Source: Azospirillum lipoferum 4B (GTDB lineage: Bacteria; Pseudomonadota; Alphaproteobacteria; Azospirillales; Azospirillaceae). Taken from it: DNA of 64,000 nt. Below are positions 4,781 through 45,229 of the stretch, piece after piece. The notes beneath the pieces are model-generated. The model saw only the letters and a program-made list of their open reading frames with translations. It made no database searches and was not told where the DNA came from. The first letter of the stretch is position 1, and the number at the start of each line of letters is the position of its first letter. Location of the stretch: NCBI RefSeq assembly GCF_000283655.1, contig NC_016587.1:372001-436000 (forward strand). The letters are read 5' to 3'. Both the position numbers and the translations under genes were made by a program.

Positions 4781-4784
4781 CTCC

Positions 4785-5053
4785 CTCTCCCCCCGGGGGG
4801 CTACGGGATGCACACATTTCGGATTTGCGAAAAGACGTGCAGCTTGGCATTGAGGACAGCCCCTCTCCCCTCGCGGGAGAGGGGTTGGGGTGAGGGGCGG
4901 AAACTTGATTTCCACGGGCTTTCAGCCGGTCGCACCCCTCATCCCAACCCTTCTCCCGCAAGGGGAGAAGGGCTTTTCACTACCTTTGGTTGCCGATATC
5001 TCGCAGAGGTGAGATGTGTGAATGCCATAGCCCCGGGGGAGAGAGGGGATTCT
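4785..5053. repeat. Nested inverted-repeat region
   Basis: No gene lies between 4781 and 5055. The interval is a nested inverted structure. The outer arms are 4785-4835 (CCCCCCGGGGGGCTACGGG, then CACACATTTC) and the reverse complement of 5000-5053 (CCCCCGGGGCTATGG, then CACACATCTC). The inner arms are the composite palindrome at 4860-4973. It separates the convergent ends of the glycosyltransferase operon and the Lrp gene and may act as a bidirectional terminator. Confidence 0.6.
4860..4973. repeat. Composite palindromic element, copy 1
   Basis: Two palindromic arms in opposite orientation (CCCCTCTCCCCTCGCGGGAG... and ...CTCCCGCAAGGGGAGAAGG) flank a spacer containing GATTTCCACGGGCTTTCAGCCGGTCG. 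Each arm carries a tail read as GGTTGGGGTGAGGGG or its complement. The same architecture and spacer core recur at 25501-25616 and, in inverted orientation, at 45112-45229. Confidence 0.75.
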
Positions 5054-24905: not shown

Positions 24906-25892
24906 TCAGAAGCGGGTCGAAGCGGTGGGGCCGGCGACGACGGTCACCGGATGCGCAGGCGCGGGCGGGCGCGGGCGGATCGCCAGCCCCTTGCGCCAGA
25001 GATGCAGCGCCTCCCAATGGATGCCGGCGACCACCTTGGCGGTCATCAGCGGGTGCCGGGCCCAGGCGCGCAGGATGGCGCCGTCGGTCAACTCCACCCG
25101 CCGCAGGGCGAGCGACGCATGCAGGACCGGCCCCGCCGCGTCGGTCTGGCGGATCGCGACGGCCAGCGGCTCCCCCTGCTCGCCCGAGGGCGGGCGGATG
25201 CGGAAGTGATAGGCGGTCTCCATGTCCATGAAGGGCGACACGTAGAACCGCTTGTCGCAGCTCTGGCGCACCAGCCCGTCCGCTCCGCGCTCCGCCGGAA
25301 TGAGATAGGCGTGGCGCTGGCCGAAGGTGTTGCTGACCTCATGGATGATGGCGGCGAGCGTCCCGTCGGGCCGATGACAGAACCAGAGGCAGAGCGGGTT
25401 GAAGACGAAGCCCAGCACCCGCGGAAAGCACAGCAGCCGCACCGGCCCGCCTGCCTCGATCCCGGCCGCCGCCAGCTGCGCCCCAGCCCAGGCCTTCAAG
25501 CCCCTCTCCCCTTGTGGGAGAGGGGTTGGGGTGAGGGGGTGGAAGCTTTGATTTCCAACGGCCTGCGGCCGGCCGTACCCCTCATCCCAACCCTTCTCCC
25601 GCAAGGGGAGAAGGGCATCCGAGTCGAAGCGCTGCTGTTCGCGCGCTTCCCCACGCGAAGGGTTGCTTTCCAACGGCCCGAAATCGCCGTCATGGAAACC
25701 GGTCAGGCCGAATCGGTTGTGGGCGAACAGCCGCAGCTCGCGGTCCATCCGGGGAAGCTCGTCCAGATCGATCAGCAGGCTGAACACGCGGTAGGACAGC
25801 CTGTGGCGCACCGGCTTCACCCGGTTGTGCATCACCGTGCCGACATAAAGGCCGGAGGCGAAGCGCCGCTCTTCCCGATGGTGCTCCATCAC
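24906..25892 (-). CDS. DUF1365 protein interrupted in frame by a palindromic repeat
   Basis: A 328-residue DUF1365 protein. Conserved parts are YVGTVMHNRVKPVRHRLSYRVF (near residue 16), HNRFGLTGFHDGDFGPL (58-74), and FNPLCLWFCH with NTFGQRHAYL further on. Residues ~75-131 (57 aa) do not belong to the family. They are a translation of a composite palindromic repeat, for example LTPTPLPQGERG. Without them the length (271) is normal. The frame remains open, so the gene may still be functional. It is coupled to the flavoprotein gene by ATGA. Function is unknown; it regularly co-occurs with Cfa-like enzymes. Confidence 0.85.
   Translation of the reverse strand: MMEHHREERRFASGLYVGTVMHNRVKPVRHRLSYRVFSLLIDLDELPRMDRELRLFAHNRFGLTGFHDGDFGPLESNPSRGEAREQQRFDSDALLPLREKGWDEGYGRPQAVGNQSFHPLTPTPLPQGERGLKAWAGAQLAAAGIEAGGPVRLLCFPRVLGFVFNPLCLWFCHRPDGTLAAIIHEVSNTFGQRHAYLIPAERGADGLVRQSCDKRFYVSPFMDMETAYHFRIRPPSGEQGEPLAVAIRQTDAAGPVLHASLALRRVELTDGAILRAWARHPLMTAKVVAGIHWEALHLWRKGLAIRPRPPAPAHPVTVVAGPTASTRF
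25501..25616. repeat. Composite palindromic element, copy 2, inside a CDS
   Basis: Same architecture as 4860-4973: arm CCCCTCTCCCCTTGTGGGAG, tail GGTTGGGGTGAGGGG, a spacer with GATTTCCAACGGCCTGCGG, then the inverted arm. The next 60 bp carry a second TTTCCAACGGCC at 25667-25678. The whole ~170-bp insertion lies within the DUF1365 gene without breaking its frame. Confidence 0.85.
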
Positions 25893-45111: not shown

Positions 45112-45229
45112 GCCCTTCTCCCCTTGTGGGAGAAGGGTTGGGATGAGAGGTACAGACGGCGACAGGCCGTTGGAAACCCTGGATTTGCGCCCCCTCACCC
45201 CAACCCCTCTCCCGCAAGGGGAGAGGGGC
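45112..45229. repeat. Composite palindromic element, copy 3
   Basis: The inverted form of the element at 25501-25616. Read on the minus strand it has arm CCCCTCTCCCCTTGCGGGAG, tail GGTTGGGGTGAGGGG, spacer GTTTCCAACGGCCTGTCG, then the opposite arm. It lies between the EamA gene start and a lipoprotein gene stop. No other gene is in 45011-45302. Confidence 0.8.

Follow-up and report, generated by a model that had tools for sequence, protein, structure and literature searches.

Palindromic repeats inserted in frame into protein linkers of Azospirillum, including the linker of a DUF1365 gene

Palindromic repeats within coding sequences are best known from Rickettsia, where they can be attributed to intracellular life and relaxed selection. 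Rickettsia palindromic elements (RPEs) are described in passages of PMC10969869 as palindromes of approximately 100–150 bp that belong to several families and lie in frame in unrelated genes, and each RPE is stated there to encode a conserved peptide. Intragenic REPs with the tag GTAG/CGTC are, according to passages of PMC3733652, hairpins that are often paired and mostly intergenic, with some in frame in open reading frames (ORFs); DnaE2 genes are among the genes concerned, and different REPs occupy approximately the same recB site in X. campestris and X. oryzae. The Coxiella MITEs QMITE1/2 are sometimes in frame in genes, and QMITE2 is a target of IS1111 (excerpts of PMC5896051). The enterobacterial RU elements are short inverted-repeat elements (excerpts of PMC2759123). 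In-frame palindromes are already known as RPEs and intragenic REPs; what is new here is Azospirillum as the host, the occurrence of more than one reading frame, and the stacking of elements. We found no report of such elements in Azospirillum proteins among the matches listed in the open-licence literature, and the main text of PMC3733652 does not name Azospirillum.

The Azospirillum palindromes resemble RPEs in behavior and description, being also in frame inside protein genes; unlike Rickettsia, their host is a free-living soil bacterium. They share with intragenic REPs that they are hairpin repeats, mostly intergenic and sometimes in frame, with DnaE2 among the genes. However, the REP tag GTAG/CGTC is absent (family A ends in GCCC/GGGC and family B in (A)TCCCC/GGG(G)GA), and the Azospirillum units are longer and have spacers. 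Like the MITEs (QMITE1/2 and RU), they are short, consist of inverted repeats, encode no transposase themselves, and are sometimes in frame. The features of the window, by which we mean the whole stretch of 64,000 nt of Azospirillum lipoferum 4B that was analyzed, are as follows.

24906..25892, minus strand: DUF1365 gene with in-frame insert; ORF of 328 aa plus stop; PF07103, E 6.7e-78.
25500..25616, minus strand: family-A composite palindrome (hairpin, spacer, inverted hairpin); 117 nt, i.e., 39 codons.
25617..25669, minus strand: filler of ~53 nt between native GGGCCGTTGG and the palindrome; absent from the orthologues in G001 and B21.
25670..25679, minus strand: native gene sequence GGGCCGTTGG (gene strand); at the same place in palindrome-free relatives, e.g., L003 and L013.
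4860..4973, plus strand: second family-A copy, intergenic, from nhmmer; G001 has no copy at this site.
4783..5043, no strand assigned: outer palindrome around the 4860 copy; 86% match to G037:C53 over 4783–5043; alignment with L155.
45112..45229, no strand assigned: third family-A copy, intergenic, within a stretch of ~200 nt that is absent from G001 and B21.

The preliminary description had proposed an in-frame palindromic insertion in the DUF1365 gene, and linker lengths bear this out. The FGPL-to-LKAW linker is 174 nt in the window, with the palindrome inside, versus 18 nt in the two closest kin; the gain is 156 nt or 52 codons, and removing the insert would restore the usual length, as had also been claimed. 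The reading frame and both conserved flanks were correctly described as intact: the ORF is open over 328 aa and the Pfam match to PF07103 spans residues 15–310. The element has terminal inverted repeats, a MITE feature, in the form of two 39-nt arms (25500–25538 and 25578–25616) that are 90% complementary, and its ends, GCCC...GGGC, are common to 68 family-A copies. Rfam returned 36 matches up to E 1 and none at the gathering score; these were mostly miRNA precursors, which a long hairpin would be expected to give.

The view that approximately 57 foreign residues are all palindrome was correct only in part: the insert is real, and the palindrome makes up 117 nt (39 codons) of it, with ~53 nt (25617–25669) lying outside. 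No convincing copy of this filler was found in 45 genomes, plasmids, or fetched loci. The best matches were one weak 34-nt match (G010, among the 45 genomes), one peptide at E 10 (plasmids), and otherwise short stretches (fetched loci), and the idea that the filler is another repeat was rejected on these weak or short matches. With this filler beside the palindrome, the DUF1365 event was not a clean insertion. The second spacer core TTTCCAACGGCC at 25667–25678, previously taken as a sign of a second event, is mostly native sequence; it was rejected as a second insertion because GGGCCGTTGG occupies the same place in the palindrome-free relatives.

The two other copies in the window had been noted previously, and nhmmer with the 25500 copy as the query recovered both (E = 3.6e-22 for 4860–4973 and 8.4e-23 for 45112–45229). 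Both are missing from G001. The 22-nt arm pattern, with up to 5 substitutions, is listed 4 times in the window; 20 mononucleotide shuffles gave 0.2 on average. At the 4860 site, the large nested palindrome of the window corresponds to an uninterrupted hairpin in B21, and A. ramasamyi has an apparent degenerate remnant at the 45112 site. The window stretch 4783–5043 is a nest of three layers: the loop of an outer hairpin holds a second palindrome, which in turn contains the family-A element. In a sample of 299 genomes of the phylum, 12 had an exact match to the 21-nt family-A arm; G135, one of these, had 60 matches over both strands.

A maximum-likelihood tree of the locus joined the window to G001 (ultrafast bootstrap 98), then to B21 (99), and then to A. 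ramasamyi (100). All three relatives have 18-nt linkers without the insert. Because these sister species have empty linkers, the window insertion is private and probably entered after the split from them. The clean gap anticipated in close Azospirillum homologues was indeed found, with a palindrome-free linker in 17 of the 22 other Azospirillum orthologues with both flanks present. Inspection by eye found a palindrome at the DUF1365 linker in none of 38 loci from other genera.

The same DUF1365 linker holds another repeat, family B, in the A. oryzae clade (L001, L002, L006, and KACC 14407). Family B is 138 nt in length, has a spacer unlike that of family A, and gave 86 to 100 matches per genome in 5 genomes (full and partial, both strands). 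In A. oryzae KACC 14407, the DUF1365 gene is an annotated CDS of 984 nt on a complete plasmid. Thus, the earlier suggestion of more than one event does not follow from TTTCCAACGGCC; it is supported at this linker by the different repeat family of the A. oryzae clade. The linkers of L007 and L008 are 45 and 48 nt and contain a single hairpin, which may have arisen independently or be what is left of the same insertion; the choice is limited by the locus tree, in which the A. oryzae and A. lipoferum groups are poorly resolved (supports 39–66). The linker of L006 (A. oryzae A2P) is 155 nt, out of frame, and has a stop. The DUF1365 gene of L140 is located between genes for an FAD-dependent oxidoreductase and a cyclopropane-fatty-acyl-phospholipid synthase family protein, with a sigma-70 family/ChrR anti-sigma pair nearby.

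As judged from locus alignments, the linkers of four other proteins (urea carboxylase, histidine phosphatase, DnaE2, and RbbA) also contain in-frame palindromes. Each site has several families, which were assigned by eye. Among 11 urea carboxylase loci, 4 had family B, 4 had family C, 1 had a larger nested insert, and 2 were palindrome-free; the inserts lie between the CT_A_B and CT_C_D domains. The stretch that comes after the family-B inserts of L307/L308 is nearly identical to the family-C end in L311, which suggests that family B entered or replaced an older family C. For histidine phosphatase, 20 of 30 loci were used (the rest are paralogues, ~50% identity), and L349 was unusable without a downstream anchor. 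These linkers contained family B (6, one nested), family D (2), which is akin to family C, a single hairpin (3), or a short linker (7), and 1 was off frame in a locus that holds one undetermined base.

The DnaE2 set comprised 30 loci from the 44 genomes with a match, with composite or nested palindromes in 17, a single hairpin in 6, and other or short linkers in 7. L407/L408 have flanks nearly identical to those of L401 and are 84 nt (28 codons) shorter; this fits a deletion between the two hairpins of a composite, with shortening as the presumed direction. At the RbbA linker, 28 of 33 loci were usable (L443 gave no length, L447 had a false anchor, and L372/L373/L375 duplicated genomes already in the set), and at least 3 families were present. 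L433 and L435 contain a different repeat there, HPREGGDP or HLREGGGP...DSRLRGNDG. Two RbbA loci are off frame: L438 with a palindrome-free 16-nt linker, and L439 with element E (described below) and an undetermined base in the locus.

The survey covered 147 distinct full-length copies, each with a flank of 160 nt or more; they are a convenience sample from loci fetched for several reasons. A coding signal on both flanks was found for 8 of them, versus 2081 of 3000 random positions in the same loci. Flanks of 450 nt had flagged no copies, the DUF1365 ones included, and were shortened to 300 nt after that result (70, then 147 copies). Six copies were in frame within a spanning coding ORF: DUF1365 (window, L001, and L002), urea carboxylase (L237 and L243), and histidine phosphatase (L248). 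Within each of the pairs L001/L002 and L237/L243, the inserts have a common origin or are at the least orthologous. The window copy belongs to the 6 in-frame copies and not to the 8 because its filler side has no coding signal, and no coding ORF spans the element in 2 of the 8 (L109 and L193). By codon signal, 140 of the 147 copies were not inside a coding ORF. The repeats are mostly intergenic; in this respect, and in the several families per linker and the loop nesting, they differ from RPEs.

A further 38 loci included 9 with coding on both sides, which is not a rate because 20 of the 38 were chosen for long open frames. The 9 include DnaE2 (L382 and L383), RbbA (L372, L373, L375, L376, and L379), and an acyltransferase/FabA-type protein (L371); ten rows were returned for this set, L304 was dropped as a coordinate artefact, and L380 had no Pfam match. 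NCBIfam cut-offs were passed by RbbA (L376), error-prone DNA polymerase (L382), and urea carboxylase (L243), and the remaining proteins were assigned by Pfam or by likeness.

Linker length was a multiple of three in 21 of 22 DUF1365, 11 of 11 urea carboxylase, 18 of 19 histidine phosphatase, 30 of 30 DnaE2, and 26 of 28 usable RbbA loci; these counts cover loci related by descent, palindrome-free linkers included, and are not independent events. Element cores have a multiple-of-three length in 30–31% of cases. In urea carboxylase and histidine phosphatase, dN/dS was 1.0–1.2 in the inserts, with changes even over codon positions, and 0.11–0.36 in the flanks (0.31–0.47 in the two-sequence family-D set); the ratios are pairwise sums, and the insert sets include a few native linker codons. 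The flanks in these two genes are under purifying selection, and their inserts evolve as neutral sequence. AlphaFold2 with a 48-sequence alignment gave the DUF1365 protein a mean pLDDT of 83.1, with residues 77–115 and 125–129 below 50 and most of the core above 90. The insert is predicted to be disordered and the linker to lie outside the folded core. Taken together, the dN/dS and pLDDT values suggest that the inserts are neutral, disordered linkers, the frame of which is held by selection downstream.

The family-B peptide reads PSPPRGEGRGEG in urea carboxylase and, in a different frame, SPLPPGERVRVRG in both DUF1365 and histidine phosphatase. A conserved peptide such as that of RPEs was not found in Azospirillum, in which family B occurs in more than one frame and insert dN/dS is about 1. 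The likeness to Rickettsia palindromic elements that had been pointed out for this gene holds as behavior (in frame, with the insert predicted to be disordered) and extends to at least 4 more genes of the genus.

We consider it very probable that a family-A repeat entered the variable 18-nt DUF1365 linker after the split from the sister species and was kept in frame outside the core, and that like events recur in Azospirillum. A mobile-type repeat, with two G+C-rich hairpins in inverted orientation and a variable spacer, would have entered the linker. The insert probably persisted because the net gain was a multiple of three, the reading frame stayed open through it, and the linker is outside the folded core, where it would be tolerated. 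The protein would presumably be made with approximately 52 extra disordered residues, the sequence of which matters little. Different palindrome families have come to occupy the same linkers of the five proteins; hairpins that are in place can receive further elements in their loops, and a composite can probably shrink to one hairpin.

An unlikely alternative is a function in RNA: the hairpin would be kept for ribosome pausing between domains or for tuning of the operon mRNA, with the peptide as a by-product. The 117-nt palindrome has a stable predicted fold (MFE -90.2 kcal/mol, a value without a shuffle control), the urea carboxylase inserts are positioned between domains, and their arms look by eye better conserved than their spacers. 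However, homogenization among copies would also conserve the arms, and the elements are patchy within the genus, belong to several families, occur as single hairpins, and have many palindrome-free orthologues.

Slightly less probable again is that the palindrome hit an unneeded DUF1365 gene that is dying, its open frame being the luck of G+C-rich DNA. Open frames are frequent in the elements (57% in family A and 24% in family B), the A2P insert and two RbbA orthologues are off frame, and the upstream dN of the window gene is somewhat raised (64 codons; 0.051 to both G001 and B21, versus 0.029 between G001 and B21). Some relaxation of the window gene is possible because of this dN and an upstream dN/dS of 1.06 against A. 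ramasamyi, a ratio based on few changes. However, downstream of the insert, dN/dS between the window and G001 is 0.094 over 189 codons, and nearly all linkers of the four other genes are multiples of three. Even A2P is still constrained downstream of its insert (dN/dS 0.22–0.24), and its frameshift is, therefore, recent or a sequencing error. It is highly improbable that the insert is skipped at the RNA level or by ribosome bypassing to give a protein of normal length; strong hairpins could in principle support bypassing, but skipping would require neither a length divisible by three nor freedom from stops, and nearly all inserts show both. Least probable of all is an assembly or sequencing artefact, since, although the window copy rests on a single assembly, its ends recur across the family-A copies, the ORF is intact, and analogous inserts are present in other strains, including the annotated complete plasmid of A. 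oryzae KACC 14407.

Element E, of 62 nt and two hairpins, was first seen in the histidine phosphatase locus L347, where it is nested in frame in the first family-B hairpin; the orthologue L341 has a similar family B without E. Direct comparisons show loop nesting in this pair and between the window and B21 at 4783–5043. All 17 distinct E copies in the fetched loci lie between CCCTCTCCC-like and GGGAGAGGG-like arms. A stem score of at least 9 of 12 was found for 14 of the 17 versus 122 of 5000 controls, and at least 8 of 12 for 17 of 17 versus 558 of 5000. The initial threshold of 10 of 12 stem matches was reached by only 2 of the 17 because the stem is ~9 bp. Of these loci, ten had been retrieved on the basis of family B and three on the basis of a family-B-type peptide. 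Among 12 copies fetched by E similarity alone (12 of the 33 Azospirillum replicons with a match), 9 scored at least 9 and all 12 at least 8.

The E copies align mutually over up to ~220 nt, beyond the 62 nt of E, and many were, therefore, probably copied with their host and are not separate insertions. By eye, the hosts include both family-B hairpins, a single hairpin (L458), a C-type hairpin (L439 and L461), and a CCCTCCCC-type hairpin (L359, L366, and L460). E is, therefore, linked to hairpin loops, and at least a few of its entries were separate. The sister species have no hairpin at the DUF1365 linker, which limits any comparison of family-A entry there with the loop route of E. On B510 plasmid pAB510e, a copy of E (L457:301-362) falls within the region annotated as the start of cobA, the start codon of which may be misplaced.

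Mobilization would presumably involve an enzyme that acts on hairpin DNA. The motif GGGGWSAS, in passages of PMC3733652, pointed to a RAYT or TIR-associated Y1 transposase as the mobilizer. Y1_Tnp (PF01797) was detected in 11 of 45 genomes, which are partly drafts; it was strong in G011 and G025, weak in G028, G034, and G037, and at threshold detected neither in the pattern-rich G012, G013, G014, G029, and G032 nor in the family-B-rich G020, G024, and G031. Neither family-A nor family-B ends showed a direct target duplication; the family-A flank consensus AA...TT is inverted, not direct, and the three window sites are complex. In this, the Azospirillum elements may differ from MITEs, as also in that the search for Y1 identified no partner transposase.

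More tentatively, and with less than even confidence, we envision self-stacking palindromic elements that enter hairpin loops, for which the linkers of DUF1365, urea carboxylase, histidine phosphatase, DnaE2, and RbbA would be recurrent landing pads, entered in succession over evolution by different families that nest, collapse, and displace one another in frame. If this is true, the hairpin acts within coding genes as a target that is inherited, and layers of selfish DNA supply new linkers.

Azospirillum offers coding palindromes in large free-living genomes, in genes under purifying selection, and at the same linkers across species with several families. The empty, single-hairpin, composite, and nested states are replicated natural experiments on selfish DNA becoming protein, and through the loop-associated element E the mechanism of insertion can be tested. 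Annotators should also be aware that a peptide such as PLPPGERVRVRG within a protein can stem from repeat DNA and not be a domain. Family B also matches Escherichia and Enterobacter plasmids. In A. ramasamyi and Azospirillum sp. B510, the annotated HlyD family protein encoded directly 5' of rbbA has a C-terminal end that comes from a family-B-like element (L462:1501-1636 and L463:1501-1636).
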